The position numbers were made by a program, and so were the translations under genes. A stretch of DNA of 64,000 nt from Lucifuga dentata (lineage: Eukaryota; Chordata; Actinopteri; Ophidiiformes; Bythitidae): positions 62,001 through 126,000 of the forward strand of contig VXCM01000206.1 of NCBI GenBank assembly GCA_014773175.1, written 5' to 3'. The notes under the pieces were generated by a model, which was not told the origin of the DNA, did no database searches, and saw only the letters and a list, made by a program, of their open reading frames with translations. Shown piece after piece: positions 11,964-57,033 of this stretch; within the stretch, counting starts at the first letter, position 1, and the number at the start of each line of letters is the position of its first letter.

Positions 11964-11999
<36 letters not shown>

Positions 12000-12809: not shown

Positions 12810-12857
<48 letters not shown>

Positions 12858-15800: not shown

Positions 15801-17139
15801 ACGCTCACTGTGAGAGCTACAATGACTGGCTGTGTCAGATCCGTGCAGGTAAACTTTAGAAAATGTACTTTGATCATCACACCAAACTACGCCTGTAACA
15901 AATTTCAACAGACCTGAATATGCTATAAGCTTCACATAGGTTTGGATTAAATGGTACAGGTGTTTTACAGGTGTTGTGGCTTTAAAGGAACATACAGATC
16001 ATTTTTCATGTTTGAGTCCAATAAATGTGACCGGCATTACTGCCAAACATTTTCCAAAACATGCTATTGGAGCAGTAAATATTAGAATTGTTTTGGTATA
16101 TGCGGGTAGTATTTACTGGGCTCAAACATGCAAAAAAAAAAAAAAAAAAAAAAAAATCACTAAATCACTAGTATGGTCCTTTAAACCAATTTTGACAACA
16201 AAAAAGAACTCAATATGAAAGCCACCGCTATTTTGTTTTTGCTAACTGACTGTGTCTTCACAGGAGTGATGCCAAAGCCGCCACCAAATGATACTGTTGT
16301 GGGTATGTTGAGTAATCATACCATGCATGCACGCACGCATACATGCAAGTGCATGTACACAGTGAGGAAATATGAACAACAACTGATAATAATTAATACA
16401 CAACAGAATATTCTGTGTTTTGTATAGGAATACATTTGGCCCCAAATATGATCTAAAATGCAAGCTGCTTGAGTTGACATCTCAGTCAGATTGTACTGTA
16501 AAATTATTTAGAAAAACAGGTACAATCACAAGTATAATCCTCATAAAAAATCTTACTTTTGAGAGTTCAGTACTTGGCTTCCACATGTTTTGCTGAAACT
16601 GGTGAAACAGGATCATAATAATGCATTAAACTTTTAAAATTTAAAAAAAGACTGTCATAAATGTCAGGCAGCAGTTACAGTATCAGACTGCGAAACTGTG
16701 ACATAAACTTCCAATCAAATCCCATATCTGGGGATGAGTTCTGAAATGTTGTGCATCTTAGATTTTAGTTAGATACAAGTGTCTCTTGATTAAAAATGGA
16801 CACTATGAAATGGTTTGTAATTTTCTGAAATTCTTTATTTTGTATGATGTCTCTAAGAAGTGAAAGCCACAAAAACTCATAGCTTCTACATATTTCTGAA
16901 ATCTTTGCAGACTATAATATCACCTCAGATGGCTGGCTCAGTTGGAGAGGAAATCATTATTATATTAACTACAACTCAGTGGCCATGGAAGATGCTCGAC
17001 ACTTCTGCCAGCAGAGACACAGCGACTTGGCAGTTATCAACAGTGAAGCTGAAAATACCTTTATATGGAAACAGGTAGGTACAGTACTTCAGCATGCAAT
17101 GAGGGACAGTTCACTCTGTATAAACTACAGTAGGTCTTA

Positions 17140-17180
<41 letters not shown>

Positions 17181-18553
17181 TACAGATATCCAGAAACTAT
17201 GGAACCTATTATATAGGCATGACAGTGGACCTTGATGGATCATTTTGGTGAGTTTGAATGGAAGATTATTATGTATGGCATTTTATTAAGAAAATATGTG
17301 TCAGAAAATCTAAATGATTCCTGTTTATTGGTTGTAAGGGAGATCAAGAAAGTCTTGAGCCTTTTTAAAAGTAATTTGTAAGCATCAACTGTATCTTCAT
17401 TACACTGTCTAAGGCTCAATAAGACAATTAAAGGAAATTTAAGGTGACAAAAGAAAACCCAACATGTGTCTAAGTTAGGTGTGGTGTGTCTATATGAGCC
17501 ATCTTACAGTTATCTTCTGATTTGAGACCAGAATTTAGTCTCACAATTCCAAAAACTATTCCAATGTTTCATTTTGATTTTCTAAGACATTCAAAGATTT
17601 TTGGTTTTTGTTAACTTGTCTAAAAACATGCCTGCCAGCAAAAAAAAAAAAAGGTCTGCCAAGCAGGTATTGTCTGTAGTTATAGTTCAATTTATATACA
17701 CTTTATAATATTTTGATTTGTGCTTCAAGGTGGATGGATAATTCCCCAGTGGTGTTTCAAAGATGGGATAAAAATCAACCTGATTTTGCTAACAATGATG
17801 AGAATTGCGTAGCTATGACTTACTATATGGGTGAGTAACGTTCAGAATTCACATGACAGATTAAATGTAGTCATTTATTGTAACAATTTAATGTATGTTG
17901 TTTAAATAGGCTGCTGTCTGAATTTAATGTATTAATTTCTGCCAGGCTTCTGGAGTGATTGTAATTGTGGGCAAGAGCATCGTTCCGTTTGTAAACGCAG
18001 AGGCTCAGCACCTGTCAACACCACTGTAGCCCCGACTGTGGCTCCTAAAGGCGGCTGCCCGCTCAAGTGGACAAAATTTGACTCAAAGGTCAGAGGTCAC
18101 TCTTAAACCAGGAGAGGCATATAAATCTCTCCATGTCTGTTTTATGAAATTACCATAAGATTTATCCTGGTTACTGGGCTTTGCTGTATAAAATTTGTCC
18201 CACAATAAAAAAAATTTATCCCACAGTAAACCCATTAGTGTCCATTCAGCCATCTATAATATGTTTGCTTAGGAATCACAGCAATAAACTTTATCTGTAA
18301 AACATTTTCTTAACACTTGCTTAAATAAATTATAAAAAGAAAATAGAATGAATGATAATAAATGACAGTTTCAATGAAGACAAAAACATTAAAGTAGAAA
18401 AAAGAAAAGACAAAAAAGACAAAAATTAAGAAATTAAAATACTATGAATCATCACACGAGGCTTAAAAGATAGAGAAAAAGTTAAAAAAAAATTAGGTTT
18501 CATATACTTATATGTATTTGTGTGTGTGACTATATATTTATATGTACTGTATG

Positions 18554-18591
<38 letters not shown>

Positions 18592-21500
18592 TCTCTACAC
18601 AAACACACACACACACACACATATAATGTATGTCAATGTGTTTGTATTTGGTTTAAACGTATAGTTTTCAGTTTTCATGTTAAGGCTACAAAAAACATGA
18701 TGAATAAAGATTTTGATGAAAAATAGGCTTATGTCCATGAAAGCTTGATAAAAGAGCATCACTGGATACTCTGTTTAAAAAAAATCTATTCTTCCTTGTA
18801 GTGTTACAGCATCATTACTAACCGAAAGGGAACATGGGATGAATCAAGAAGACAGTGCATTGCCATGGGAGGAAATCTGGCGTCGGTTCTCTCAAGGCGT
18901 GTCCAAGGTTTCTTTGATTTATTTTAATATCACACATTATGTACACAGCGTAAATGCAACATTAATAGATATTTTGAACAAAATGCACATATTATCAATG
19001 AAACCTTAGATGAGTTTTTTGGTTTGTTTATCAGTGCATTTTTTGTATTTAGTTATTCATTCAATTAGCATGAAGGGAAAAAATGATGACACTAACCTAT
19101 TCCAAACTGTGAAATTTTCAGCATTTTTGATGACCTGCATGGCTGAATTCGCCACTACAGACCTGTGGATCGGTTTGAACAGTTTAACAGATGATGAATT
19201 TTACTGGACTGATGGAAAACCGAGACGATACACCAATTGGGGCTATTCTGTAAGTCTATACAATCTATATTCAGGGATGTAAGTTCAGCGGATATAAAAT
19301 GAATATAAATATACATATTTTTCTGTTGGTGTACTGTTAAAACAAATCTGATATTTGTTTTCTCTCCAGAAAAATCACCGTCACCAAGGCAGTTTTTATC
19401 AACGATGGAATGAGGTAACATATTCCAACATAAAATATCACTATTTATTTATTGTCACAACGTAGAATAGTTTTTAGGAGACAATGTTGCATAACATCAC
19501 ACTGAATTCCCTTTCTCTCCATTTTCCTAACATTCCCTCTGTACTTCACCAGGAACAATGTGTGGTGATGAACAGCAATCCGACAATTGGGATTGGGAAG
19601 TGGCTGATAAGGTCCTGCAATGATACCAATGGGTTTGTCTGTCTTCGAAATGTTGGTGAGCGTAACCTATATTTCTTTTAGATTTTATCGATTTAAACTT
19701 ACATTTTTTCCAATAAATAAATTCCGTGACGCTACAGGAAAGTGGAAAATTTAGCCAAAATGTGTTGCATCAGCAAAATTTACAACAAAGTGGTTGTATT
19801 GTGTGAATGAGGTGCATTATGACCCAAGAGTGAGTTAATTTTTCTACACTTTATGACACAAGTGCATTGATAATAATAGTAAATAAAAATTTTAATGACC
19901 TCTCCCTCCTCTTCCCCCTCAACAGACCCACTTATCCCAGCCTCAGCAGATCCAGTAATTCCTAAAACCTTTGTGAAACTGGCAAATGACTCCATCAAGG
20001 TTGAGACTCAAAATATGACCTGGGATGCAGCCAAGACAAACTGTGAAGCTAATAAAGCCACCCTAGCTAGCCTGAGAAATGAGTGGACGCAAGCCTATGT
20101 GGAGTTGCTGGCAATGAATCTCCAAGCTCCTCTCTGGATTGGACTGAATAAAGTGCAGGTAAAGAACTGACACACCTGACATTACTGATTTTAGGTTTTA
20201 TCCATGATACACAGCACAAAATCCTCATGATCGTCTACTATGGCCAATTAGATCTGAGAGTGAACCAATGAAACATACAGCAGACAGGTAGGAAACAACT
20301 AATTACGAGCAATGGAGGTTTTTTTTTTTTTTTATAAATACTAATACATTCCCTGTGTAAAACTAATCCCCTGCCAAAAATATGGTAAAAATATAGACCA
20401 ACCTCAGTTGTTGTTACTGTTGTTACAGATAAGAGTCTGATGCAGAAATTGCATATTCCCAAAGTGATTGTATGCTAATTCCCCCTTGCTTTCAGACTCA
20501 GGGATATTTTAGGTATATTGATGGCTGGCACATGAACTTTGCCAATTGGGCTGCAGGTGAACCAAGCAGTAATCAACCTTGTGTGTACCTGGATGTAGAC
20601 GGAACATGGAAGACGGCCTTCTGCAATCAGACCATGAGCAGCGTCTGTATGCAGTCAACAGGTATGACCATTAGCATGCTAATGTAAAGTCAAATAAGTG
20701 AATACAGTGATAAAGTATCAGCATCATACAAGGTGGATTATGCTGTAAATGAGTCCTAAACACTATGTCATTACCGTTTCTTCCATTCACAGAAGTGCCA
20801 CCAACAGAGTCTACCACTTTCCCAGGCTTTTGCCCTGAAGAGGTAGACATAGAGTACTATGGGAGTTATTCCTGGTTGCCGTTTAAGGGTCATTGTTATT
20901 TGTTTGTCACTGGGGAAACTGAATGGCCAAATGCTGCTAGCAGCTGTGTGAAGTACGGTAAGCTCAACTGCAGCATCTTTTTTTTTTTTTTTTGTTTTTG
21001 CAGTTCTTTGATATCACAGACTGATTGGTTTGGAAAACATGAGCAAATAGTATATAGCTTCTCAACACCAGTGCACTTTAGTAAACTACACCTAGTAAAT
21101 TGTGATTAGTTTACATTGAAATCTGACTATTTTTTGTTGTTTAGGTGGAATTCTTGCCAGCATTGAAGATTCTTTTGAGCAAGAATTCATAAAAAGCAAC
21201 GTGGAAATATTTCAAGATAGCGAGACCTCTTTCTGGATCGGCCTGTATAAAACCCATAAAGGTACGATTACACAGTCTGTTCTTTCATAAAACATAATTT
21301 CAAGACAAACTGAAAATAAAATTGAATCAAACCAATGAAAACTTTTTTTTTTTTCTGTTTGTTCCTAGGAAACTGGTTGTGGTTGGACAAAACTGTCATG
21401 GACTACACTAACTGGAGTGAAGATGAGCCTGATGATGACGCTTATGGAGAGATTACAACTTCAGATGGGATGTGGAGGACAGGCCACCGATGGTACGACA

Positions 21501-22286
21501 GAGCCTACATCTGCAAAACCCCCAAAGGTGAGACGACCACAGTCTGACTGGATTTTTATGATGACTTTCACACATGCTGCTTGTTGTGGAATCTTCTATG
21601 AGTCAGAGGAAACCAGACACAAGATTCTGGTACTGGTGATGTGTAACTTTACAAGAAAAATACTTAGTCTTTGACTAATAAATGTGGATCTTCTTCCATT
21701 AGCTTCCTTAAACTCAACATCCATCCTCACCCTCACATATTGTATCTGAGACTGAAAGTATCTTGTTGCAGAAATATAGAAGTAAAGTAGAATGGAATTC
21801 ATTAGCACAAATACCGCTGCCAAGGCTGAACAGACATAGAAACACTTCAGCAGGGAATTCCTCCTCTGCATAGAATGTATGTCTGGCACAGGGCTTCAAA
21901 CCCACAACCTTCCTGTTGCTAACCACTGCAATGCCATAGTGCCCTAAAGAGAAGAAACGACTATAATAACAGTAGGACTTAATTGGTTTATTTGCCTTAA
22001 GAATCAGTAGTTTTTAAAATGTATCTGAATCTGGACCAAATTGAACTTGTTGATATACTATCAAATGATCAATGTGCCTGATTTTTTTTTTTTTTTTTTT
22101 TNTTTTTTTTTTTTTTTTTTTCACTCAGATGGTGAATCAATTTTTAAGAAATAGACAAAAACACTGGAAAATCCTCCTATTTTAGAATCGGAATAAATCA
22201 TTTCAGAAATTCCTGGATCTGCCTCTGGATCCAGATCTGTATCGAAATTCATTCCACCAACTTTCATCCGAACTTTTTGAGTAATC

Positions 22287-22320
<34 letters not shown>

Positions 22321-22878
22321 TGAAAATACAACCTCCTTGGAAGAGGAAATTACCAATTAGTTTTATGCTTATATATATGTATTTTTTTTTATTATATATT
22401 AGTTATCTGATCAGTGTTCCTTTCTTTCCCGCCAGTGATGAAGCAAGACTTGTTGCCAACAGCTGGTAAGTTACACCTCTTCATCTCCTGAAGTAATATT
22501 TGAATATTGGAAACCTGTTATATGACTGAATGCAATATTTACAATAACCAAATCCCACATGATTAGTTTTATTTTACTGTGTATTTTAAGTTAAATTCAT
22601 ATGGATCCTCCTCTTTCTGAATTTATGCAGTGCCGCGTCTGATATTGGATCCTCGTCACCGTGTTCACACAAATTTGGCAGTTGTGCTGGTCATTACTGT
22701 CATTTCCATGCTGGCTGTCATCGCTTTCTTCCTCTACAAGAAGTCTGGTCGTCCCTTACCCACCTTTGACAACCCACTCTACTTTGGTGGTGAGAAATCT
22801 CAACCTGACGTGGTCGACACCAACAAACTGATAGAAAATGCTCAGGAAGAGAACACTGAGCCGATGATAACTCTGTGA
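8299..22878 (+). CDS. mrc1: Macrophage mannose receptor 1, tandem copy 1 (complete, 31 coding exons)
   Basis: Exons: 8299-8410, 8675-9031, 9318-9488, 9692-9847, 11006-11183, 12240-12377, 12491-12667, 12910-13064, 13351-13464, 13660-13775, 13870-14018, 14106-14305, 14469-14584, 15494-15566, 15695-15848, 16264-16302, 16911-17074, 17186-17247, 17730-17830, 17946-18088, 18802-18907, 19122-19249, 19370-19414, 19553-19655, 19926-20158, 20496-20661, 20793-20957, 21145-21261, 21369-21527, 22436-22465, 22631-22878. Every junction is in phase once a 67-base assembly repeat in exon 5 is removed. Numbering from the ATG at 8338 gives 1,422 residues (human about 1,456): signal peptide 1-22, ricin-type domain 25-143, FN2 144-200, eight CTLDs about 201-1330, membrane span about 1356-1376, tail to the end. 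An in-frame ATG at 8299 adds 13 residues. The family is an endocytic and phagocytic receptor of macrophages and sinusoidal endothelium for mannose, sulfated sugars and collagen. CTLD4 keeps the EPN/WND mannose motif and the tail keeps FDNPLY, so this copy looks like the conventional receptor. Confidence 0.95.
8675..9488 (+). other. mrc1: Ricin-type (CysR) and fibronectin type II domains of mrc1 copy 1
   Basis: Exon 8675-9031 (357 bases) encodes a ricin B-type trefoil lectin domain; KCLGAQG, LYDCDD and LQKWEC are typical repeat core segments. In mammals this domain binds 4-sulfated GalNAc. Exon 9318-9488 (171 bases) encodes one fibronectin type II module with its four cysteines and the aromatic core ([27 protein letters not shown]), the collagen-binding unit of the family. 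Both exons are phase 1 to phase 1 and have the same lengths in copy 2. Confidence 0.92.
10231..10646. repeat. TTAA-flanked MITE, copy 2
   Basis: Diverged copy in intron 4 of mrc1 copy 1. Left end AAAGGACAAAACCGGTGAT, right end GGTATAGCCCTTTAA, with the shared internal CTACCTTCCAGAC and AGGTAATTCATCATGG segments. Confidence 0.75.
11016..11148. other. Assembly duplication around N at 11082
   Basis: Positions 11016-11081 and 11083-11148 are identical 66-base sequences separated by one N, inside exon 5 of mrc1 copy 1. Removing 67 bases gives a 111-base exon, exactly the length of the matching exon in copy 2. Confidence 0.92.
12814..12856. repeat. CT dinucleotide microsatellite
   Basis: About 21 CT units in the intron between exons 7 and 8 of mrc1 copy 1, about 50 bases before the exon 8 acceptor. 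Confidence 0.95.
14106..15848 (+). other. mrc1: CTLD4 of mrc1 copy 1, with intact EPN and WND sugar-binding motifs
   Basis: CTLD4 is built from the end of exon 12 (14106-14305) and exons 14469-14584, 15494-15566 and 15695-15848. The last exon reads [15 protein letters not shown] and later GSWNDAHC. These supply the five residues that hold the sugar-binding calcium in mannose-type CTLDs: E and N of EPN, the following E, and N and D of WND. In mammalian MRC1 this is the main sugar-binding domain. The intron at 14585-15493 hosts a hAT-type MITE. Confidence 0.9.
14673..14889. repeat. hAT-type MITE in an mrc1 copy 1 intron
   Basis: Begins CAGTGGTTCTCTGTCCTGG and ends AGATTGAGAACCACTG, so the ends are inverted repeats of the type common in teleost hAT-derived MITEs. 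Inside is ACCTGATTAGCTAAATCAAG followed by a diverged inverted form of it. Confidence 0.65.
15982..16184. repeat. TTAA-flanked MITE, short internally deleted copy
   Basis: About 200 bases in intron 15 of mrc1 copy 1, with both family ends (TTAAAGGAACATAC and GTATGGTCCTTTAA) but little internal sequence, and a poly-A expansion inside the right end. Confidence 0.75.
17142..17179. repeat. mrc1: GT microsatellite directly before mrc1 copy 1 exon 18
   Basis: About 19 GT units end six bases before the acceptor AG of exon 17186-17247. Copy 2 has the same arrangement. Confidence 0.95.
18553..18621. repeat. CT plus AC microsatellites in an mrc1 copy 1 intron
   Basis: A CT run with one interruption (18553-18596) is followed by an AC run (18601-18621) in the intron before exon 21. 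Confidence 0.95.
19370..19414 (+). other. mrc1: CTLD6 loop microexon of mrc1 copy 1 (45 bases)
   Basis: A 45-base exon with phase 0 at both ends, bounded by CTCTCCAG and GTAACA, encodes the 15-residue loop [15 protein letters not shown]. It sits between the NWG segment of exon 19122-19249 and the QCVV segment of exon 19553-19655. The length matches the loop between the NWG and DCVV segments of CTLD6 in human MRC1 as I recall it. Copy 2 has three smaller exons at this place. Confidence 0.8.
21145..21527 (+). other. mrc1: Distal half of CTLD8 in mrc1 copy 1, lacking the inner disulfide pair
   Basis: Exons 21145-21261 and 21369-21527 encode the second half of CTLD8. The fold is recognisable ([33 protein letters not shown]) and the outer cysteines remain. 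The two inner cysteines expected after the EPD segment and before the final YIC are absent, replaced around AYGEI and GHRWYD. Copy 2 shows the same loss, so it predates the duplication or was homogenised. Confidence 0.8.
22125..22321 (+). repeat. Dispersed fish repeat ending in a CCAG tetranucleotide tract
   Basis: CTGGATCTGCCTCTGGATCC, TTCCACCAACTTTCATCCGA and TTTTTGAGTAATCCTACC are followed by CAGC/CCAG repeats (22291-22321). The layout of a fixed 3' segment plus a short tandem tail suggests a retroposon 3' end. The family is not certain. Confidence 0.4.
22631..22878 (+). other. mrc1: Transmembrane and cytoplasmic exon of mrc1 copy 1, with FDNPLY motif
   Basis: The last coding exon encodes a juxtamembrane segment, a hydrophobic span (about [20 protein letters not shown]), a KK stop-transfer pair and a tail of about 46 residues. 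The tail contains TFDNPLYF, matching the FENTLYF internalisation site of human MRC1 and the FxNPxY consensus found in the LDL receptor. The tail ends with an acidic region ([12 protein letters not shown]). The stop codon is TGA at 22876-22878. Confidence 0.92.
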
Positions 22879-28524: not shown

Positions 28525-30510
28525 ATGTCTCCTGCTGTGAGACATTTCAGAACAATGAGGACAACCTGTGCAGCATTTGTTCTTCTCATCCAAACATTCC
28601 ACTGTTTGGCTTCAGATGGTACAGTAGTCCAAGTTTTAATTTAAATCTTTTTGTGTAACTGTGTAGCCACGTTTGATCTACCTTAAGCTCATTCTTTAAA
28701 CTCAAAATATTGCATGCATGTCACCAGTGTTACCCTAAACATTTCTAGATTTGTTGTAGATGAAGACAAACTTGTATTTCTGTTTTGCTGAGGAGCGTTT
28801 GTAAGAACATGCTGCTTAATAGAATTTTGCTTAATCAACACAGCTGAAATAACGCCAATGACACAATATCTACATTGTTTTACGGTTTTAATAAATTATT
28901 AAAATTAATAAATGCACAATCTTTCTCTGTAGATTCATACTTCAACCTTTCTAACAAGACAACTGGTTTTTGTTTGGCGGAAAATCATGACTTCTGCTAT
29001 CCAATGCGCTGGACAAGTGGGGACCGAATTATGGTTCTGTATAAGAGGAAGTGCCTGGGAGCCCAAGGGAAAAGTGTGGGAAGTGAAATAAACCTCTACG
29101 ATTGTGACGAAAAAAGTGATCTCCAAAAGTGGGAATGCAAGAATGAAACAGTGCTTGCCCTCAAAGGCGAAAATTTTTATATTGAACTCAAGGCACAAGG
29201 TGTTGCAGTTCTGTCCAAAACTATCGGGCCTAATAACCACCTCATAATTTCAGGGACATCCAGTGGTGCTTGTACAAGAACATACAGAGGTAAAGTACAA
29301 AACACTGTTGTTTTTTAATTATCTGTGCATAACATTTTCTAGTATACTGTATCGTCAGTTGATTTATGATAACTAATTCATCTTTGTTTGATAAATCTGT
29401 GGTTTGGAAAGGATAAAACCTGTATTTCAAAGACTCTTCAGCCTTCAAAAATAGGATTTGCATCATGTTTCAAAGTGGTGTGTCATATTTTCTTACTAAA
29501 CGTTTATCAGTGCAGGGACACACGTCCTCACACCAACTATGCCTTTATGTTCTTATTACCTTTTAGAATGGTTCACCATTGAAGGAAATGCATATGGACA
29601 ACCCTGCATGTTTCCTTTCCTGTATGAAAACAAGTGGTATGATGACTGCATAACATCTGACGCCTCAGGCAAACGTCGCTGGTGTGCAGTTGAAACAAAA
29701 TATGATAATGGGATCTGGGGTTTCTGCCCAACTAACTGTGAGTATTTCCTGTGAAACACATAACTATAGTCTGTATATTACTAAAGTGGGAAAAACACAT
29801 ATTTACCCTGTAGCTTTTCCTGCCATAACTAGCATGCAGTGAATGATCATAAGTTGCTCTTTATCTACATTCTTAATTACTGCAAATTCAATTATTTCAG
29901 AGCATTTTAATTCATTACTACTAGTTCAGAGTTAGTCTACCTTTCACATTCTATGCAAAATACAGAACCATATAAATTTGCAATTTTAAGGTAGAGGGGA
30001 AAATCATTACTTCTTAAAAAATAAACTCAAATAATCATTTACCTGTTTTTGTATGTAAATTTCTTAGCCAAAGAAAACTGGAAGAAACACCCTATAACAG
30101 GAGCTTATTACCAGATCAACACCCAGTCGGCTCTGACGTGGTCGCAGGCCCAGACCAGCTGCAAACAGCAAAGTGCCTCCTTGCTCAGCATCACTGATCC
30201 ACACCAGCAGGCTTACATCATGCGTAAGGCACAACTGATTTCTGATTAACTTGTTAAAAATGTGAAAAGGACAGGCTGATAATTCAACCTTTGCTGAGCT
30301 CGGCAGTCCTTAGTTACTCTTGCCTATCAAGTTTTTGAGGCTAGCTTGGCAAATATTCCACTGTTACTATAATTTCTTGAAAAAAACAACCAACAACAAC
30401 CATTAATGAATGCATAAATGCATGGATACTGTTATAATGATCAGGACAGCAATTATGATTTGGACACAATGCTAATGAAAACTTTTGTCTTTACTTTTTC
30501 AACCACACAT

Positions 30511-30548
<38 letters not shown>

Positions 30549-33500
30549 AGAGCTGTTAGGCACAGGGAACTCTCAAGTTTGGACTGGGCTGACGCTGGAT
30601 ACAGAACACAGCTGGCAGTGGTCTGATGGGAGGCCCTACCGTTATCTGAAATGGGACTCAGGTAAGTTTTCTCCCCATATGATACTCTTTGTTTGCTTAT
30701 TGGATTATCTGTACCTGTCTCAAAGAGTAACAAAGTACATTTACTCAAGTGCTCTGCTTGAGTGCAATTCTGAGGTACTTCGCTTGAGTAATTGTGCTAC
30801 TTTAAACTTCTACTCCACAACAGAGGGGGAAAATTCTGCCATTATTCTTATTGTATTTATTTAATGGCTTTACTTCACAGAAAAGATATTACTTGCAAAC
30901 CATGCCAAGGTTCTACATAGAGTGCATGGCCATTGCTTTGATATTAAAGTGCTGCTTACATATCATTACATAAAGTATTTTGGGTCTAGCAGTATGTATG
31001 CTGTTTGAAACCTGAGGCTGAGGTCTGTGTCCTAAAATGTACACTGTATGTTATTTTTTTATTTTTATTTTTTTTACATCTTCAGCATTGCCTGCCTGCA
31101 TTTAACTACATTCAAATTGGTTTTTATTCATTCAAAGTGAATGTATTCATTATTTGTATCACCATTCTCAATTGGGATACCAGTAGTGCTGACTTGATAC
31201 TGGGAGTATTATTTGAAATGTATAATTTATTGATTAATAAAGTTCAACTACTGTTGAATTTGATGACTGAAATAAAGCTACGTTCTACAATACTACATCA
31301 ACATGACTGGAAAATCGATATCTAATGGTCTTTTTTTTTAATTTTAGGACATCCACTTGGAAATCCAGGACATAATTGTGCAGTTCTTAATGCTGATGTA
31401 CAATATTCCTGGCAAAGTTCACAGTGTTCCAAGAAACTGGGATACATCTGCTACAATAAAGGGACATTAGATCCTACTCCTGAAGGTACAGAAAAACACC
31501 CATTCTGTTCAAGATCACTTGTAGTTACAGTATTATTTTTTGGTGTAAGAACTTTCCCTGTGTGACATGACTCATTCAGTCTCTACACTTCCTGTTTTTT
31601 CGTGATCAGTTCAGACAGGATTTTGTTCAAACCCTTGGATTCACTACAATGGCCACTGCTTCCACCTTAATCGCATGCAGAAAACATGGTCTGCTGCTCA
31701 GCTTGAGTGCCGTAAAGAAGGAGGGGACCTGGTGAGCATTCGCAACGTGGAGGACCAAAGCTTTGTCATCTCTCAACTTGGATTTGGTATGTGAAGATAT
31801 TTTTAGAATTTCTACAAAACTGTAGAGGAAGCTGCTGTGTAATGTGTCTATTCAGCAGTTTTCCACATATTACCTTTACTGTCTTAAAAAAAAAAAAAAA
31901 AAAAANAAAAAAAAAAAAAAAAAAGAAAAAAGATATTCACTCTGTTTGACTATGCTGGTTCGTTTTTGAGATCCAGCTGTGTGGGTGAATTTCACTTATT
32001 TCAGTCACCACCCTCCTACATATTCCATATTAAATGAATATTTTCTCTGAGTTATGTGACTACAGCTGATCTTTCCCTCATACCAGATCTGTACAGACAC
32101 ACTGTAAAACCAATACTTAATAATTTAAAGTAAAAACTCAACTATTATTGGCAATGCACTCCAAATCCTTCTCACAGCATATCATTGCACTCTAAATCAG
32201 AGGCTGAGTATTATGGTACTTAATATTATTTAACATTAACAGTGATTAATTATGACTGTGAAGAAACCATTTGTCTTAAAAAATAAAAATTCTTTAGAAC
32301 TGCACTCATTTTTCAATATTTGATGAGATCTAAAGAATGTAAATGGGAATTAAGAATCTTACCTCAATAGAACAGGCATGATTTACAACATTGCCACAAA
32401 TTGCTTCATCCTACACAAACCTCTGACACGGGCCATTGCCTGAACCAACAGTGGTCTATAACTGACACACAAAAGTCACATTTTTCATTGGGTGAGCCAG
32501 CCAGAAAATTCCTATTTTTCACTAAATGGTCCATGATTTATGTAAGATGTATTTTCCTGTTTCCATAAACTGCAGCAAGCAGTGATGAGCTGTGGATTGG
32601 ACTCAATGACAGGACGACTGAGGGTCTGTTTGACTGGAGTGACCATTCCACTGTCACATTTACCACCTGGGAGTTTGGGGAGCCTGCTATCTCTGCTATT
32701 CAGGAAGACTGTGTTCTCATCAGGGGAGCGGTAACATGAAACACATGAATACGAGAAATGAATATGTGACTTGTATATCTGCACTCATTCTTAAGATAAA
32801 ACTGTCATGATGTAATCTCCATTAATTTCCCCAATCTCCATTAATTTCCCCAGTTACAAAAATATAAGCTGCAGCAGTATGTATAGCAGTTCAGTTTTAA
32901 TGACAGCACATTTTTCTTGCAGAATGGTAACTGGGCTGACCGTGTGTGTGAGGAGAAACATGGTTTCATTTGTATGAAGCCAAGTGCCTCTGAACCCTCT
33001 GGAGATGAAGTGGAACAGAATATAGGCTGCAAAGCTGTATGTAAAGTTTACATATATATATATATATATCTGTCTTAACATGGTTTTACTCAAACATCAT
33101 AACCAACCAATTTGTATCTGTAGGACTGAATAAGTGTTATACTATTTTTAAGGTTCTTGTACAACAATATTATTCGCTATACACAAAAATTGTTTGTTCT
33201 TTTGAATATGAATTAATATTTAAAAAATGAAGTAAGCCATGTAATCTTTCTTCATATTTCCTTTCCTACAATCCAGGGATGGAAACGGCATGGATCCTAT
33301 TGCTACTTTGTTGGGTCACAGACCAAAACGTTTGATGAAGCTAAAGATGACTGTAAAAGCTCAGACTCTTACTTGGCTGATGTTTCAAATGGGTAAGAAC
33401 ATGTTTTTTTTTCACTCCAAACATTTTTGAGCATACAAGACTTTGAAGAAGTTGAAATATGCAGGATGTAATTTACTTTGAATTTACAAGTGGAATAAAA

Positions 33501-36500
33501 CATGTAATACTTTTATTGTTTTTTTTACTGGGACTTTTTCCAGGGTGGATAATGCATTCCTTGTCAGCTTGGTGGGAATGAGACCAGAGAAATACTTCTG
33601 GCTCGGTTTCTCAAATCAGAAACACACTGATATGTTTGTGTGGACGAACACAGATTCAGTGAAATTTACTCACTGGAATACTGGGATGCCGGGTACTGTA
33701 TGTGGAAACTTAAAATTACATTCATAAATTGTTGCAAAAACAGTAGCTTCACAATACACTTTTCCTATTTTTTCCTCAACAATATCAGGCCATCTTCAGG
33801 GCTGTGTTGCCATGACAACTGGGATTTTTGCTGGACTCTGGGATGTGCTGCCCTGCACCAGTCAGGAAAAATATATCTGCAAGCATCTGGCAGAGGGGGC
33901 AGTGTTAACCCCCGTCCCACTGACTCTCAGCCCTCCAAAGTGTGCTGAAGGCTGGTCTCCAGTGGGATCCAGAATCTCCTGCTTTAAGGTACACGGACAT
34001 TACATTTTTACATACAATTACTCAAGAAACACCTGAATAGAGGCTGTATTTAGAGGCATTGTTGTATTGGATTATGACATTATATGAGAACGTACAACCT
34101 TCACAGCACCTTAAAGTGCCATACTGATGATTTTACATATTTGAGCCAAATAAATACTACCTGCAAACATATTATGTTACTAATAGCCATTTCCAAAAAT
34201 ATAAAACTATATTTTAATTTTCTTGTCCTTTTGCAAAATCTCCTAACCTTTCAAAATTAAATATTCAGGTTGTAACCCAATTGTAACCCACTTAAAATTC
34301 AGTATTTCTCCTGCTAACACTTATACTCGACTGTAGAAGGCATTTAATTTCTTGGTAAAAGCAGTCTTCTCCTGGAACTATATTCCCTGGTGGAGACATA
34401 CATTTTCTTGCATGTACCTCCATGTTGGATCAATTAAATTAAGTTTCTTCAAAAAAAAATTTTGCGCGCTGCAATGGATTACTCAAGCACGTTTCAAATA
34501 GCTACAAGATTTATACAGGTATTGGGATGAACTGAAACCAGTGGCAATCTGGGAGGTAGGAAAAACAATTCTAAAATATACCACTCCAGTAGCATGTTTT
34601 GGAAAGTGGTTGGAAGTAATGTAACATGTATGAGGGTTGTATATATTGGGCTTAAACATGTAAAATCACTGGTATGCTCCTTTAAAGATTATCAATACTT
34701 CTGGTATTTTAGAGCACTTGGTTAACAATCTTACATTGTCACACATCAGTCCCCTACACCAGGGATCTGGAGGAAAAACACTAAAAAAAAAAAAAAAANA
34801 AAAAAAAAAAAAAAATGTCCCTTTCAAAATCAGATCCCTTTCCCTTCCGTTAGTTTAGCAAGTAAGCCTCCTTAGACAAGTCAGACAACAGTATGTGAGA
34901 AGAAACTGAAATCTTGTGATTTTCTTAAACTCTCAACTCATGCACAAATCTTTGCAACTACTTTAGGATTTATAATGAAATCATCTACGCCTAAAGAGAC
35001 CTGTCGTATCAGTTGAGATACACATAAATGTCTGCGCACTTAAATTAAACATTTGAAACAGATTGAAGTGACCCTATCAAATATGGTCTGGTTTAATCAA
35101 AGCTGCACTTCTTGTTCAAGGTATTTTCAGGGTATAGTTCAAAAAAAACCTGGTATGAGGCCAGGGATTACTGCAGGGCCATCGGAGGAGATCTGCTCAG
35201 CATCCACAGCGCTGCTGAGCTACAAGTGCAAAGGTAGGACCTGGTTATTTCCAGTTACAACTGTATTCATTTTTGTAGAAAACACAGTACTTCCCTGTCT
35301 AAATCACATGTTGTAGCTGCAACAAGGAAGACAAAAAATTACTTGTTAGCCAAACAACCTTGACCTGGTAAAGTAAGAGAAAAACAGTAAAACTGATTAA
35401 TTTCAATTATTGAATTAGAATTAATGACATTCAAAACTGGTTGCTACAAAAAAACAAAAAAAAAAAAAAAAAAAAATTAATTTAAAAAAACAAAACAAAA
35501 CTGAGGTTGGCTTATGTGCACCAGGGCATGGGACTCTTATTATTTTATATATATATGAATTTACTTTAACATTTTCAATTTACATTACATAAATCATTTA
35601 ATATCTGCTTTACAGAGGTGCATTAGCCTGGATTGGACTTAGTGCCCCTGACCCTGCCACTGGTTACGTTTGGAGTGATGGAACCCCAGTGAGTTACTTT
35701 TTTCAATTTCTACATCTAATTTCCACATTTGATTTCAGTTTAGATACTCTATTTACCATTTATACCATGAGTCTTTATTGTGGTTTGTTTTTGTTTGCAG
35801 CTAAATTTCCAACACTGGGAGGATGGAAAGCCAGACAATAAAAACAATGTGGAATCATGTGTTGAATTCAAAACATATAGAAAGGACAGCAGCGGGTCTT
35901 GGAACGATGTTCACTGTGAGAGTTACAAGGACTGGCTGTGTCAGATTCGTGCAGGTACAGTTGAGAAAATATGGGCTGCAGTGTGGAAGCTTTCATAATC
36001 TTTCTTTAAAGTTGCCTCATTGTGCATGCTGTTCTTTCACCAGTGTTTTTCTTCACATTTACGCCGCCAACTTCCTCCCCACACTTCTCTTTTGTAATGT
36101 CATTATCTTTTATCTGCATCCTTACAGGAGTGACTCCCAAACCACCTCCAGATAATCCTGTCCCTGGTAAGTAGTAATTTGCAACCACATAGAAATTCTG
36201 AAATTTTATATCACTGAAACTTTTATATCTTTGAAGCTTAATTAAAACCTGAACTGGATTTAGAGACTTTTTCTTTTAGTAATTAAAATATTTCTAAATA
36301 TACATAAATTGCTCAATTATGTATGCTAATTTTCTAATAAAACATACTTAAATAAACATTTTTGAAATATTTAAATATTAATAAAATATATTGTACAATA
36401 AAATTATAAAATTAAATACAGTGTTATGAAACAAACATATTACGTGACAATTATTTTTTGTTATTTTGTCTTTGATTATAATTAATATTATAATCAATTT

Positions 36501-36939
36501 AAAATGTGATAAATTAGAGAATTACACTGGAGTCACAAAAATATTTAAGTTCAATTCTTTTTTGTTCTATTTAATGATGTAACATCTTTTAATATTTCAA
36601 CAATTTCTTCCCTACTTTAACATTTACATTTTATATTTCATAAATGCATAAAAGTTTTCAGTAAGTCAGAAATTACACATACAGTATATTACAACTGTTT
36701 CTGACATCTTTGCAGACTATAATAGGACTTCAGATGGCTGGGTGGAGTGGGGAGGGAATCAGTATTATTTCAGGGATGCGAGAGTGGCCATGGAAGATGC
36801 TCGCCACTTCTGTCAGCAGAGACATGGCGACTTAGTAACTATCAACAGTGAAGCCGAACGTGTCTTTTTATGGAAAAGGGTAGGCACGGACATTTCTACT
36901 GTATTACACATTGAACTAAACTTCAGCATAAACTAAAAG

Positions 36940-36975
<36 letters not shown>

Positions 36976-39900
36976 AGATATCTAGACAGTATTGGAATTA
37001 CTACATAGGCTTGACAGTGGATCTTGACAGAACATTTGGGTAAGTATGATTAAATACAAAAAGGAAAAACTCAATTGTGAGGAAAAAATGTTGAATTCTT
37101 AGTAAAAATTCAAATCAAAGCCAAATGGTTATAATCATAATATGTAACAATTAAAATATGCTGGGTGTAACAAAATATCCCAAAAGTTTTCACCTGGGTT
37201 GGAACCTGGTGACTGTGAAGGACATAGCATGATTTACAATATTTTCATACTTGGCAAGCCATTCAGTGATCCCCAAACTCTTTAAAAAACCTGAGAAAAA
37301 TTTTTTCTCCTACTAAGCCTGTGGTAAATGATGTCTAAGTAATGCGGAAAACAAAGACAGATGTAATGGAATCAGCCAAATAGAAAAATTATAAGTTCAG
37401 TCTTGTTTGCTTGATCACTTATGAGCAACATATTAATAAAGAATAACACTGTTTTTGTTAATGTTGTTTGCCTGTATTGCACAAAGGTGGATGGATGGTT
37501 CTCCAGTGGTGTTTCAGAGTTGGGAGGAAAATCAACCTGATTTCCAGAACTTTGATGAGAATTGTGCCATCATGGTTTCCAGTACTGGTGAGTAAAATAA
37601 GGAAGAGCTCATCTTTAATTGGCATAAATGCACATCATACACAGTAGTAATGTATTTATATAGTGAACATATATACAGTATGTAGGGTGTAAAGGGTCAG
37701 CGTAATAAGCTTTGGCTTCAGCCTACACCTTTTTGATTTAACTGTGTATCCTTGACTATTTTCTTCTGTATGAACTCAGTTATGCTTGTGAGCAGGTTTA
37801 AGTGTGCATGATCTGAAAGTGTTAAGCATGATCGAAATAACAAAAACAAAACAAAAAACAAAACAAAAAAAAAAAAAANAAAAAAAAAAAAAACAAAGTA
37901 TGCGGAAATGTTAACTTCACAGGGTTCTGGCATGACTGGAACTGTGGGACGCAACATAAGTCCATTTGTAAACGGAGTGGCTCACCACCTATCAACACCA
38001 CTGCAGCACCAACAGTGCCTCCTAGAGGTGATTGCCCACTCAACTGGCAAAAGTTGGACTCAAAGGTCAGAGGTCATTTTTAAAAATATGTGTGTTGGGG
38101 GGAGGGGGGATTACTACGTAAAGACATGCAAACTTGGGTAACTCTTATCCTCGTTACTTGCATTACTTGATTACTTGTATTTTATTGATTGATTTAAATA
38201 TAAATCAGTATCTTGTGATTTTTTTTTAACATGTCACATCAACTTTTCAGTATTTTTGTTACATGAGATTGGTACTTTCATAAGGAAGTTTGGGTGGCTG
38301 TATTTGGTATATTTTCAAGAGCTGAAAACTATCATTTTTCATCTATAGTGTTACAGCATAAATACCAGACAAATGGACACATGGGATGGAGCGAGGAAAC
38401 AATGCCAAGCAATGGGAGGAAATCTGGCCTCTATTATGTCTAGAGGTGCACAAGGTTTGTTGTATTTGTTTTAATTAACATTATCATTATAATTCTTGCT
38501 GTCACGATGAATTTTATAAATAATATACATATGATGCTAGGTTTTCAAAGATAGTCCTAGTGACATTGGGCACTATTCTTCATCATTTGAGCTTAAATTC
38601 TGTATATGCACATTTTTGGGATTCGCCAATATTTTCTTTTTCTGGAATGTTTGTACATAAGAATAAAACTTACATGTAATTGTGGCAACTCAAACCAATA
38701 TAAACAAAACCTTATTCTGATTTCTGGAAGGTTCCAGAGCAGTGGTTCTTGATCCTGATCCTAGTGTACCGCAGCACTGCATGTTTTCTAATTCTTCCTG
38801 CTCCACCCACATCTGATTAGCTAAATTAGATGTGTTTAGCCAATCAGAATCAGACCCAGCTCTTGATCACTTGAAAGGATTTGATTTTGCAAATCAGATA
38901 TGGGTACAGCAGGAAGAGATGGAAAAATCAGCTGGTGTGTTGTTTTTTGGTTGGATTGAAGACCTGCAGCTTCATGTTTTGATACATGTTCTAGACTCTT
39001 AACATCTGCAATATTCAAAAGAATTTGATATATCGTAAATAAATAAAAACACTATGATTGAAATCACGCCAATAGATGATTAATTTGATATTACATGAGC
39101 CATGACCTAACATATCTGAATTTGGTGTTTGGATTGCTGATAGCTTCTTGTTCTACTTGTACTGCAGTAGGTCTACATTTACTTCCAAAAAAAAACAAAA
39201 AAAAAACAAAAAAAAAAACGACATTACAAACATTTAATCACCCCTATCCATTCAGTGTCTTTGCTTTCTAAAATGGCTGAGACACCCACTTCAGACCTGT
39301 GGATTGGTTTGGTTGCCCTACAATCAAGTTCGTATCGCTGGACTGATGGGCGACCACTGCGATACTCAAACTTGGGCACTGATGTGAGTAGATATATTTT
39401 GTAGCTGAAGTGAATGAGTTCTGTGCAGCACTATTTATATAGCGTTTTTATGTGCTTAATAAAATCTGACACTATGATTCTCTCTTGTAGAGGTCCCTTT
39501 ATTCCATGTCACTGTATGAATTTAGGATGAAGGTAATTAAACTTCACTTTAGTTGAAGCATAACTGCATCTCCTTGAAGCATACCCAACCAAATTTATGC
39601 CTCAAGCAGACACAATATATTCAATGTTGTGATTCTGTATTATCTATATGATTGTTTGTGTTTTTATAAGAAAAATTCTGACATTGATTTTTTGCGTTAC
39701 AGCATCTTTTCTCTGAAAGGCATAGGGTAACCTTTTCTATCTTAATTAAAACCATTGCATTTGTCAAACTCAGAAGAACCCAAAAAATTTCTTACATTGA
39801 TTTTTTTTTTCATTACAGCACCCTTTCTTTGAATTGAATGAGGTAACATTTTCTTGATTCTAACTGCTTCATCTGTCAATTGACTCAGAGCCAAAGAACA

Positions 39901-42900
39901 GCACAATTAAAAACAACATATGTGTTAAAATATGACTGATTTGATGCCCTCCATGTGAAAACGTAAAACCAGTCAATCTATCCCTTTATTTCTACCAAAA
40001 AGAGGTTTAAACTCAATCAGAGGCAATTCTTCACAACCAAGCTGTAGCTATGCATAGCTACTCTGCTACCTGGAAGCTTGTTAACAGCTTTGCCACCTGT
40101 TCCTTGAAGCTAGCATGGCTAACAACCAAAGCAAAGAGAATGCACAGTGAAACCAACACAGCCACATTTACCTTCTCTACCCTCTCTACAACCATGCTAC
40201 CTGATAGCTGGTTATCCATGTATGGTCTTAGTGATAAAAGACACTGTTAGCGAAATAGTGACCTCCCTTGTAAATACTAATGCTAAAATTATGATTTAAA
40301 ATTGTAATGACGGTGGCTTTGAACTGGTTCAGCGCCCACCCTGCTCACCTGATTTGGATCAATTAGATTTTAACCTCTTTCGAAACTGGTAAAGGCTTTG
40401 AGCAAATTTTAGAAAAAAAATCTTTTTTTTTTTTTTTCCCCATGGAGTAACAGACATTTTAAACAAACCTATAATGTTATTGGTAGTAGAGGCGTGCTCT
40501 ATTCCACAAAACGCATCATGGTTTGCTCTTCTAACTATTATGTCTCTGTTTTAACCCAGAAAAAGTGTGTTGTGATTAATACCAATCCTTCTTTTGGTGT
40601 TGGGAAATGGATGCCAATGCCTTGCAATGACACCAAGGGATTTGTGTGTCTTCGCAATCTTGGTGAGATCATCTTCTCTTCTTTCTCTTCAATCCTTCTC
40701 TTATAATTAAGAAATTACTGCAGTAGATTGCATAGTGTATTTCTTAAAAATGACAGGTGAAACTTTGCTTCATGCATAGTAATGGCATGATAATATTTTA
40801 ATTTGTCAGAACTAATTTTTATGTAGTCTGGCAGATGGAATTGCATTTCAATCACAAAGTGTTCTGCTTGCATTTCAGTTAGGCTAAAAACAGTTTATTT
40901 CTTATCTTTGAAGAAATTGATTGTAGGTCCTGACCTGAAGTAGAACAGAAAAACTAAATCCATTTCCAATTTGATTTCTCTTCTTTAACAGATACAACTC
41001 TTCCAGACTCCCCTGAACCACCAATTCCTATCACCTATGTCAAAGTAGCTAATGACTCCATCAAGGCTGTGATTCAGAATATGACATGGGATCAAGCCAA
41101 TAAACAATGTCAAGATGATAAAGCCAACCTAGCTAGCCTGAGAAATGAGTGGACACAGAACTACATGGAGCTGCTGGCTTTGAAACTCCAAAGTCCTCTG
41201 TGGATTGGACTGAACAAAGAGAAGGTACAGAACTTCAACCATTTCAGAATAACTCAGGAACACAACTTAATCTGTATTTGGTACTGACTTTTGTTGAAAA
41301 CTGAAAATCTTATCTCCATCTATATTTGTATCAATAATTTTTATAAAGCCATTCATGAAGCTGTTTAAAAATACTTGTTCATGATTTGTAGAATAAAACC
41401 ATCAGGGGCAGAGTTGAGAGTTTTATTTATCTAATTCATTTTGTCAATTACATCCACAAAATCTAATAACTAATGAAGAAACTAATCTCATAGACTTTCC
41501 ATCAGGGTTGGGAGCGACGGATAGCAGCAAAAGGGAATAGATTAAAATGTTTTTACTGATCAGTTCATTAAGCCAATGGCATATTTTATGAACTGGATTT
41601 TTGAGTTGAATAAAACCAAAATAAAAACATATAATTAGTTTAGCTTTTTCTAATAGAATGTGTTTTGATCCATCCTTGTTTTTAGACTGGCGGTTATTTT
41701 AGATACACTGATGGTTGGCACATGAGCCTTGCCAACTGGTGGTATGGTGAACCAAAAAGTGACAGATCCTGTGTGTATGTGGATATGAATGGAAAATGGA
41801 AGACTGCTTTCTGCAATCGGACCATGAACAGTGTCTGTATGCAGTCGACAGGTATGACAGTTTTCTGGCTAATGTCAATTCAAATTAATATGTCGGGCTT
41901 CCTAAATACTGACTTATCTTCACAGATGTGGCACCGACAGAGTCAAATGATTTCCCAGGAGTGTGCCCTGAATACAAGGAAGAATCATACGGACAGAGAC
42001 CTTTTACCTGGCTACCATTTAGGGGTCACTGTTATGTCTTTGTAACAAATGAAAAGACATGGTCAGAAGCATCTGTTAGCTGTGTACAACATGGTAAGGC
42101 TCTTCTGCAGATGGTCAGATACAGATGTTTAAATTTGTTTAGTTTTCATTCAGAGCCAACAGTTTGTTCTCTGAAGGTGGAGTCCTTGCCAGCATTGAAG
42201 ATCTTTCTGAGCAAGAATTCCTCCAAAGGAACGTAAAAACATTTCAGGACAGTCACGTCTCTTTCTGGCTCGGCCTATTTAAGACTCACAAAGGTAAGTT
42301 AGACACTCTGGGGTCTCACGAAAAGAAATGTTCTGTTACACTTGTTAGCTGTAAATTAAAAAAAATACATTTTTAAATCAGCAGCATCAAAATAAATGAT
42401 GAAATTACTGCTGTTTCTGAATTATTTGCTGTATTTATAGAGTACAGAGCATAAAAAAATAAGACTGTGGATTTCTTGGCGAAAACAAAGAAATATTTGG
42501 TTATGTTGGATGGACTGCCATTGTTTTAAAATTACATATTTCAATGACTCTTTTTCATTCATTCTTTGTACTGTTGGCAAAAGCGAGATTTCTTTTTAAA
42601 TTAAGTGAAACAAAATTTAATGAACAATGTGAAAATAACTTGAGTTTCTACGCGTCCATAGGTCAGTGGCTATGGTGGGATAAAACAGTCATGGATTACA
42701 CAAATTGGGCTAAAGATGAGCCTGATGATAACATTTATGGAGAGATTTCAAGTGCAGATGGGACATGGAATGCAGGCCGCCAATGGTACAGGAGATCATA
42801 CATTTGCAAAACATCCAAAGGTGAGACCATCAAACTTTAGTGAACTGATTTTGAGTTGCAGGTATCCTTTATAAAAACTGAAATATATAATACATGCAAT

Positions 42901-43671
42901 GTAGGAACTTATAAATTGAATATTAAAAATGTTCACATCATGATTTTGACCGCAATTATTTGATGGAATTGTCCCTAATTTGCTAAGAGAAACTAACCAT
43001 TTTTAAGAATTAACATGTAACATCAATCATAGGCATACTGTTGTTGTTGATTTCGATGACCTTTTCGTGCAATGATAAATATGGTAAATGAGAGAGAATT
43101 TGAGAACAGAATGTCATCCATAGTCAAAGCATCTCTCAGCCCTAAAATAAATTACTGGGACTCAATTTAAAATTCACATTTTGTCAAAATTTACACTTTA
43201 TGATTGTTTATTTGATCACATTTTGCTTCTCTCTAAACAGTGATACTTCCAGCACCAATACCAGTACCTAGTAAGTTTCTTTCTTTCAGTTGTCAGAATT
43301 CATGACAGCCTTTTCTCTTTGAATCTGTTTTAATGCAGTGGTTATGATTCAATTTTCTGACTAATGATCATCAATGAATCTGTGCAGGAAAACCTGCAGT
43401 AGTGGATCCTCGTATGCGTTCCCGCATAGGTATGGCAGTTACACTGGTCATTGCTGGGCTTGCCATGGGAACAGTCATTGTTTTGGTCCTTTGGAAGAAA
43501 ACTGGTCATCGCTTACCCATCCCAGAAAAGATAACCACCTTTGACAACCCGCTCTTCTTCAACAATGAGCGAGCCCATCCTGGTGTGGTCGACACCACTA
43601 AGCTGATAGAGAATGCAGAGGAACAGAACTCTGAGCCTGAAGTGAGCACTGAGCTTGTTGTAACTGGTTGA
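28525..43671 (+). CDS. mrc1: Macrophage mannose receptor 1-like, tandem copy 2 (complete)
   Basis: Exons: 28525-28618, 28933-29289, 29567-29737, 30068-30223, 30551-30661, 31348-31485, 31610-31786, 32576-32730, 32923-33036, 33277-33392, 33544-33692, 33789-33988, 35121-35233, 35616-35688, 35801-35954, 36128-36166, 36716-36879, 36978-37039, 37487-37587, 37923-38065, 38349-38454, 39256-39383, microexons 39491-39532, 39703-39726 and 39819-39842, then 40560-40662, 40992-41224, 41686-41851, 41926-42093, 42177-42293, 42662-42820, 43241-43270, 43388-43671. All phases agree and no stop interrupts. From the ATG at 28555 the form with all microexons has 1,446 residues; an in-frame ATG at 28525 adds 10. 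Exon lengths equal copy 1 except exons 1, 13, the microexon region, 27 of copy 1 numbering, and the last. Domain order is identical. Differences of note: CTLD4 has KPD for EPN, the tail has FDNPLF for FDNPLY. It is a tandem duplicate that may have lost or changed sugar binding. Confidence 0.95.
28933..29737 (+). other. mrc1: Ricin-type (CysR) and fibronectin type II domains of mrc1 copy 2
   Basis: Exons 28933-29289 (357 bases) and 29567-29737 (171 bases) match the same pair in copy 1 in length and phase. The ricin-type core segments (KCLGAQGK, LYDCDEK, LQKWEC) and the four FN2 cysteines (QPCMFPF, WYDDC, RRWCAVETK, WGFCP) are kept. These domains look functional even though CTLD4 is altered. 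Confidence 0.92.
30513..30543. repeat. AC microsatellite directly before mrc1 copy 2 exon 5
   Basis: About 15 AC units end seven bases before the exon at 30551. Copy 1 has a shorter CACACACAAACACAG at the same place. Confidence 0.95.
33789..35954 (+). other. mrc1: CTLD4 of mrc1 copy 2, with KPD in place of EPN
   Basis: Built from the end of exon 33789-33988 and exons 35121-35233, 35616-35688 and 35801-35954. The key segment reads [15 protein letters not shown] followed by GSWNDVHC. Against copy 1, the first calcium ligand is changed from E to K (AAG codon) and the third motif residue from N to D (GAC codon), while the later E and the WND pair remain. Two of five ligands are altered, one by charge reversal. 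Confidence 0.88.
34111..34685. repeat. TTAA-flanked MITE, full-length copy in mrc1 copy 2
   Basis: 575 bases in the intron after exon 33789-33988, from TTAAAGTGCCATACTG to GGTATGCTCCTTTAA, with the same internal order as the 2943-3519 copy but in the opposite orientation. Confidence 0.8.
36942..36973. repeat. mrc1: GT microsatellite directly before mrc1 copy 2 exon 18
   Basis: About 16 GT units end just before TTTAG and the acceptor of exon 36978-37039, at the position equivalent to 17142-17179. Confidence 0.95.
38740..38985. repeat. Diverged hAT-type MITE in an mrc1 copy 2 intron
   Basis: Begins CAGTGGTTCTTGATCCTGAT and shares the CACATCTGATTAGCTAAATTAG and TGTTTAGCCAATCAGA segments with the element at 14673-14889. 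The right end is decayed. Confidence 0.5.
39491..39532 (+). other. mrc1: CTLD6 loop microexon a of mrc1 copy 2 (42 bases)
   Basis: Bounded by CTTGTAG and GTAATT, phase 0 at both ends, encoding RSLYSMSLYEFRMK. It lies at the position of the single 45-base exon of copy 1. Its last eight codons (SLYEFRMK) resemble microexons b and c. Confidence 0.75.
39703..39726 (+). other. mrc1: CTLD6 loop microexon b of mrc1 copy 2 (24 bases)
   Basis: Bounded by GCGTTACAG and GTAACC, phase 0 at both ends, encoding HLFSERHR. The exon and its flanking intron bases are repeated, with changes, around microexon c roughly 115 bases downstream, which marks a tandem exon duplication. Being in frame, it can be included or skipped without breaking the receptor. 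Confidence 0.6.
39819..39842 (+). other. mrc1: CTLD6 loop microexon c of mrc1 copy 2 (24 bases)
   Basis: Bounded by CATTACAG and GTAACA, phase 0 at both ends, encoding HPFFELNE. It is similar to microexon b in sequence and flanks, and its end resembles the end of the 45-base copy 1 exon (both end in NE before GTAACA). Confidence 0.62.
43388..43671 (+). other. mrc1: Transmembrane and cytoplasmic exon of mrc1 copy 2, with FDNPLF in place of FDNPLY
   Basis: Encodes a hydrophobic span (about MAVTLVIAGLAMGTVIVLVL), a KK pair and a tail about 12 residues longer than in copy 1. The motif region reads TTFDNPLFF: the tyrosine codon of copy 1 (TAC) is a phenylalanine codon (TTC). The following acidic region is conserved with copy 1 (VVDTTKLIENAEEQNSEP). 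The stop codon is TGA at 43669-43671. Confidence 0.92.

Positions 43672-45372: not shown

Positions 45373-57033
<11,661 letters not shown>

Follow-up and report, generated by a model that had tools for sequence, protein, structure and literature searches.

A KPD motif in place of EPN in the fourth lectin domain of an old tandem mannose receptor paralogue of Lucifuga dentata

The window analysed here, a stretch of 64,000 nucleotides from Lucifuga dentata (contig VXCM01000206.1, positions 62,001 to 126,000 of the forward strand), contains two mannose receptor genes lying in tandem on the plus strand. Copy 1 (8269–22878) is an mrc1b-type mannose receptor, LDENG_00014620, whose predicted protein P0017 maps exactly in 32 pieces. 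Copy 2 (28525–43671) is an MRC1-like paralogue, LDENG_00014640, to which the predicted protein P0001 maps in 22 + 8 pieces, the middle of CTLD6 excepted. MAM and LDL-receptor class A exons detected with Pfam at 861–5202 on the minus strand belong to a neighbouring gene, which we take to resemble MALRD1. A dispersed repeat occurs in both orientations, in copies of about 100 to 600 bases (2940–3525, 34109–34685, 46461–46820 and 50097–50704). Three exact or near-exact direct duplications of 66–67 bases carry a single N at or near the joint (11016–11148, 182–313 and 50485–50619) and are probably gap-closing artefacts of the assembly. The duplication at 11016–11148 lies inside a CTLD1 exon of copy 1 and leaves the public model with two odd pieces there (11006–11046 and 11141–11183).

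Copy 2 has the architecture of MRC1 (CD206), with an FNII domain, eight CTLDs, one strongly hydrophobic TM stretch, a short tail, and a CTLD4 that carries WND and E733. Pfam recovers eight Lectin_C stretches in each of P0001 and P0017, and one fn2 stretch in P0001 (52.6 bits). The CysR_MRC2_N model for the N-terminal cysteine-rich domain scores 21.7 bits on P0001, below its cut-off of 27, and the putative CysR region is 60 to 67% identical to that of other fish MRC1 proteins. By hydropathy there is one TM candidate near the C-terminus, the single peak of at least 1.6, at residue 1379 of 1456. All 30 mapped exon pieces of copy 2 are open and have AG/GT borders with one exception, the start of a piece set by hand inside CTLD6. 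The protein keeps 50 of 50 conserved cysteine columns and 276 of 277 near-invariant columns. The earlier note had called the whole gene intact; the 30 pieces, their borders and the full set of cysteines uphold this for the bulk of copy 2, but the middle of CTLD6 leaves intactness nearly, not fully, established. Within CTLD6 (39256–40662), the Trp of copy 1 (RYTNWG) is Leu in copy 2 (RYSNLG), and in this part of copy 2 the public model strings together improbable pieces.

The CTLD4 exon of copy 2 spans 35801–35954 on the plus strand. AG precedes it, GT follows it, its frame is open, and spliced mapping of P0001 sets the exon borders at exactly these positions, so the open frame and clean splice sites that had been read from the sequence alone are borne out. 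Translation likewise confirms KPD in place of EPN, in an exon that reads on to SWNDVHC (SWNDAHC in copy 1). The motif lies at 35828–35836, with K encoded by AAG (35828–35830), P by CCA (35831–35833) and D by GAC (35834–35836). The corresponding exon of copy 1 (15695–15848, plus strand), located by translation and P0017 mapping, keeps the canonical site, as claimed previously, with EPN at 15722–15730 (GAG CCA AAC) and WND. The two motifs thus differ by two single-base transitions, GAG to AAG and AAC to GAC, both of which hit codons for the calcium/sugar site. P0017 contains EPN once, and P0001 lacks it altogether. P0001 contains the same residues as the genomic reading, but it was probably predicted from the same assembly and is not independent of that reading.

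Both exons belong by domain order to CTLD4, a domain encoded in several exons, with the putative CysR, FNII and CTLD1–3 upstream and CTLD5–8 and the TM stretch downstream. The best solved match of the copy 2 exon is the human mannose receptor (7jub, 1egg), and in this alignment KPD sits on EPN and WND on WND. Copy 2 retains WND and E733 and lacks the mannose-type EPN that is present in copy 1. The galactose-type QPD is absent from copy 2 CTLD4 as well, KPD having only Pro and Asp in common with it. Both Lucifuga copies have Lys at the position of human Tyr729.

To place the two copies, protein searches (best 120 of 622, 75 of 75, and best 120 of 904 matches) supplied 170 distinct fish proteins, all of which were used; close relatives are over-represented in this set, and several rows are isoforms of one gene. 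In a FastTree phylogeny of the 170 rows, built with the CTLD4 exon columns omitted and rooted on 12 non-percomorph acanthomorph rows, the matches listed form an MRC1-like clade of 107 rows that holds copy 2 (support 97) and an mrc1b clade of 51 rows that holds copy 1 (support 100). The first branch of both clades is Lucifuga with Genypterus, supported at 100 in MRC1-like and at only 71 in mrc1b, and the second is the toadfish Thalassophryne, followed by all others. An IQ-TREE of 27 chosen rows, for which the CTLD2–3 and CTLD4 exon columns were left out, sets 12 MRC1-like rows apart from the 15 others with support 100. On these 27 rows, the tree loses 220.6 log-likelihood units when the two Lucifuga copies are constrained to group (p-AU 0.00019) and 174.3 when the four ophidiiform copies are (p-AU 8.9e-06).

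Lucifuga and Genypterus belong to the Ophidiiformes, which fall within Percomorphaceae, and Diretmus lies outside the percomorphs. Because the Ophidiiformes branch first in both clades, the duplication predates the percomorph radiation, that is, the split of Ophidiiformes from other percomorphs. The trees, the tail character and the gene structure show copy 2 to be the Lucifuga member of an old percomorph MRC1 paralogue (MRC1-like), in tandem with a conserved mrc1b. A recent tandem duplication with loss in one copy is ruled out by these trees. The account given in the earlier note, in which copy 2 lost or changed mannose binding after a tandem duplication, needs correction: the duplication is old and KPD came much later, since Genypterus has the same two copies with EPN in its copy-2 orthologue. 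Record names are a poor guide to clade membership, because fish records for these genes bear mixed names (“mannose receptor 1”, “1-like”, “C type 1b”), and P0011, named “Mannose receptor, C type 1b”, sits in the MRC1-like clade.

The cytoplasmic tail separates the two clades. The TM and tail exon of copy 2 (43388–43671, plus strand) encodes FDNPLF, and the tail exon of copy 1 (22631–22878, plus strand) encodes FDNPLY. Among the matches listed, the last position of the MRC1-like motif (FxNPxF) is Phe in 95 of 107 rows, Val in two and Ile in one, with nine gaps and no Tyr; that of mrc1b (FxNPxY) is Tyr in 49 of 51, with one Phe (Lates) and one gap, and non-percomorph rows have Tyr in 12 of 12. 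This Tyr-to-Phe difference supports the clade assignment of copy 2. The pattern [YF]xNPx[YF] is listed as an endocytosis motif, and it is in a different type, Yxx-phi, that Tyr is described as irreplaceable, according to excerpts of a survey (PMC4584282). The tail sequences suggest that MRC1-like receptors may still enter coated pits and could not be phosphorylated at that residue.

Aligning CTLD4 with other fish mrc1 proteins, a check proposed at the outset, sets KPD apart from the EPN of 148 of the 170 rows among the matches listed; the others read QPD (6), EPD (6), QPN (4), KPD (2), GPN (2), APN (1) and EPT (1). With the core site counted as EPN, E733, N747 and D748, alterations occur in 36 of 107 MRC1-like rows, 0 of 51 mrc1b rows and 2 of 12 non-percomorph rows among the matches listed, the last two being both Diretmus rows, with QPD. 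Within the MRC1-like rows listed, the three-letter motif is changed in 20 of 107 and N747 in 24 of 107, and EPN is kept in 87. Parsimony assigns 18 state changes at the core to MRC1-like and none to mrc1b; given tree lengths of 21.3 (107 rows) and 7.7 (51 rows), the probability that 0 of 18 changes land in mrc1b is 0.0039. Thirty species labels among the matches listed have both kinds of protein, and eight of these combine an altered MRC1-like row with a canonical mrc1b, with no case of the reverse. A further 39 labels have MRC1-like rows only, 21 of them with an altered row (again among the matches listed). KPD in copy 2 is thus real and less singular than first supposed, being one of many changes to this site in MRC1-like proteins.

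Among the 170 matches listed, only two rows carry KPD, Lucifuga copy 2 and Epinephelus fuscoguttatus P0089. P0089 is sister to a Plectropomus QPD row and distant from Lucifuga in the tree, so KPD arose at least twice; inheritance of KPD from a common source is ruled out, as the two occupy distant places in the MRC1-like clade and EPN rows separate them. Genypterus P0023, the copy-2 orthologue, has EPN in CTLD4, and KPD therefore originated on the Lucifuga side of that split. An ancestral KPD in copy 2 is ruled out by EPN in this orthologue, in 51 of 51 mrc1b rows and in 10 of 12 non-percomorph rows. Elsewhere in the alignment, almost every row of either lineage has QPx in CTLD5, and Lys occupies the human Tyr729 position in 86 of 107 MRC1-like rows (both among the matches listed). 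The Diretmus proteins P0012 and P0073, from a non-percomorph fish, combine QPD with WND in CTLD4 and are possible galactose-type mannose receptors.

We then compared the core site with other conserved columns, taking as background the 316 columns without variation in mrc1b. Change in the six core columns does not exceed that in random sets drawn from these 316 (p 0.24), five of the six show no more change than the remaining E, N or D columns (p 0.53), and parsimony changes of the five show no excess over all columns (p 0.11) or over E/N/D columns (p 0.37). These column tests lend no support to a site-specific pressure beyond a general loosening of MRC1-like. By region, the ratio of MRC1-like to mrc1b changes is 3.72 in CTLD4, 4.07 in the TM stretch and tail, 3.56 in FNII and 3.25 in CTLD8, and 1.99 to 2.76 in the remaining regions. 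Judged by these sequence counts, CTLD4 is very tightly constrained in mrc1b and loosely in MRC1-like.

The estimate of selection that had been proposed for each copy was obtained for the pair. Over 1302 codons (NG86), copy 1 and copy 2 differ with dN 0.20 and dS 0.54, a ratio of 0.37, in a total that omits the signal peptide, the linker, the damaged CTLD1 exon, part of CTLD6 and the short exon before the TM stretch. The CTLD4 exon alone gives 0.35 (NG86), and the short pre-TM exon, nine codons outside the total, gives 2.03. The pair is thus under net purifying selection, with the qualification that a pairwise dN/dS averages both copies and is not a value for copy 2.

Two CTLD3 exons have a lowered copy-to-copy dS of 0.09 and 0.24, and one CTLD2 exon has 0.17. 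In the intron that separates the two CTLD3 exons, identity across 87 aligned bases reaches 93%, against 40 to 77% for the other 20 introns compared. This stretch of CTLD3 adjoining CTLD4, comprising exons b and c of copy 2 (33525–33993) and its partner in copy 1 (~13851–14310), both on the plus strand, is likely a gene-conversion tract between the copies. The last exon of the tract also encodes the first CTLD4 residues, and in copy 2 the tract stops about 1.8 kb upstream of the KPD exon. Conversion between the copies means that a comparison of the two copies alone underestimates their age, and conversion this close to the exon implies that KPD persisted despite sequence exchange between them.

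Copy 2 departs from MRC1 (CD206) in KPD for the EPN of CTLD4, in Lys for human Tyr729 and in its NPxF tail. CRD4 of the human receptor is reported as the only CRD that binds monosaccharides on its own, with Asn747 and Glu733 as ligands of the principal calcium, and changing Tyr729 to Ala lowers affinity fivefold (PMC7949135, in excerpts). The zebrafish receptor likewise has EPN and WND, and the Glu/Asn of the former and the Asn/Asp of the latter are described as one calcium site (PMC4463687, in excerpts). Because Lys stands at the Tyr729 place in copy 1 too, copy 1 may bind sugar more weakly than the human domain.

We consider it moderately probable, and the best explanation overall, that copy 2 is a largely intact receptor in which the calcium-dependent mannose binding of CTLD4 has been lost or weakened. 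The trees and codons assign the two transitions from EPN to KPD to the Lucifuga lineage, once Genypterus had diverged, with WND and E733 unchanged. Lysine offers the principal Ca2+ no oxygen ligand and would bring its ammonium group close to the position of the ion. Given lysine in place of a calcium ligand and no EPN elsewhere in P0001, the most likely outcome is that CTLD4 binds mannose far more weakly or no longer at all. Copy 2 otherwise looks folded and endocytic, with its conserved cysteines all present and an NPxF tail, and would most probably serve as a scavenger, using either a different CTLD4 ligand or its remaining domains. Of the latter, CysR domains bind sulfated sugars and FNII domains bind collagen. 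Classical mannose uptake would fall to mrc1b. KPD is a single instance of the loosening that affects the CTLD4 site across the MRC1-like lineage.

Other explanations were weighed against loss or weakening of mannose binding. An error of sequencing or assembly, or a rare allele, at both codons is extremely improbable: the single assembly examined has 12 Ns, with an exact duplication around an N at three places, among them a copy 1 exon, but 35801–35954 has no N, repeat or homopolymer at the two bases, and two separate bases would both need to be wrong. An assembly artefact at the KPD exon is rejected, because this exon, unlike a CTLD1 exon of copy 1, is free of Ns and duplications. Relaxed selection, under which copy 2 would be redundant and slowly losing function in a cavefish with KPD as one neutral step, is rather unlikely. 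It agrees with the looseness of MRC1-like over the whole protein (1.99 to 4.07 times as many changes per region; tree lengths of 21.3 for 107 rows and 7.7 for 51), with site columns no looser than matched columns, and with the Trp-to-Leu change in CTLD6, where the exons of copy 2 are poorly defined. The open mapped exons with AG/GT borders, 50 of 50 cysteines, 276 of 277 near-invariant columns and a dN/dS of 0.37 speak against it, as do the many percomorphs that retain MRC1-like copies and the occurrence of KPD in a surface grouper.

A changed specificity with calcium retained is unlikely. The N-to-D change would move the site toward the galactose-type xPD, with D720, E726, N743 and D744 of P0001 holding Ca2+ in a broad or galactose-leaning lectin. 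QPD is present in 4 of 107 MRC1-like and 2 of 12 non-percomorph rows among the matches listed, and one such row is the sister of the KPD row of Epinephelus, but lysine is not an oxygen ligand, and the Lucifuga line has no QPD intermediate, Genypterus having EPN and both codon changes being direct transitions. The closest parallel is Aalb_CTL2 of Aedes albopictus, which also has KPD and WND in one CTLD and for which calcium-dependent sugar binding was measured, although it is a single-domain secreted insect lectin and no orthologue of copy 2 (PMC10317052, in excerpts). Its calcium-dependent agglutination is inhibited by mannose, galactose, glucose and maltose (3.1 mM for mannose and 6.25 mM for galactose, at 40 mM Ca2+), as given in the same source; binding of both galactose and mannose with Ca2+ by this mosquito lectin means that KPD need not abolish binding. 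A new protein or acidic ligand, bound as in tetranectin by a calcium-free site formed by lysine and acid at the EPN place, is very unlikely. Independent gains of KPD favour such a site, but two occurrences among the 107 MRC1-like rows listed are few. In the CTLD of tetranectin (CLEC3B), the EPN positions do include a Lys and an acidic residue, and Lys148 and Glu150 are reportedly used for plasminogen kringle 4; tetranectin differs from copy 2 in family and architecture, and in having a kringle ligand. The tetranectin CRD is described as binding kringle 4, with calcium inhibiting the binding of plasminogen (PMC10770464, in excerpts).

Copy 2 resembles other percomorph “macrophage mannose receptor 1-like” proteins (Genypterus P0023, Epinephelus P0089 and others) in its clade, its tail Phe and a repeatedly changed CTLD4 site, and differs in that 87 of the 107 keep EPN and only P0089 shares KPD (among the matches listed). 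Several mannose receptor duplications were reported in Fugu in 2004, an earlier case in a percomorph; these MManR paralogues, F1 to F5, are mostly fragments in a draft genome, according to excerpts of that report (PMC514892). No report of a CTLD4 motif change in fish MRC1 paralogues was found in the titles and abstract starts of the open-licence literature, which mostly excludes subscription journals.

The KPD change is genuine and was read correctly, and the old paralogue that carries it is largely intact. It is more interesting as part of a lineage-wide pattern that includes the change in the tail than as a single motif. In a broader and doubtful form, MRC1-like would be a separate receptor line that left the mannose job to mrc1b: the tail Tyr changed at the base of the clade, CTLD4 was then rewritten repeatedly, and Lucifuga and Epinephelus each acquired KPD separately for a new ligand, a protein or acidic glycan, bound by lysine without calcium. 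The two independent cases of KPD make it testable whether lysine kills calcium binding or creates a new binding site. The pair in one genome offers a natural test of a multi-domain scavenger receptor with its one EPN lectin site altered. If MRC1-like has its own tail motif and an unreliable mannose site, results would not be transferable between the two genes.
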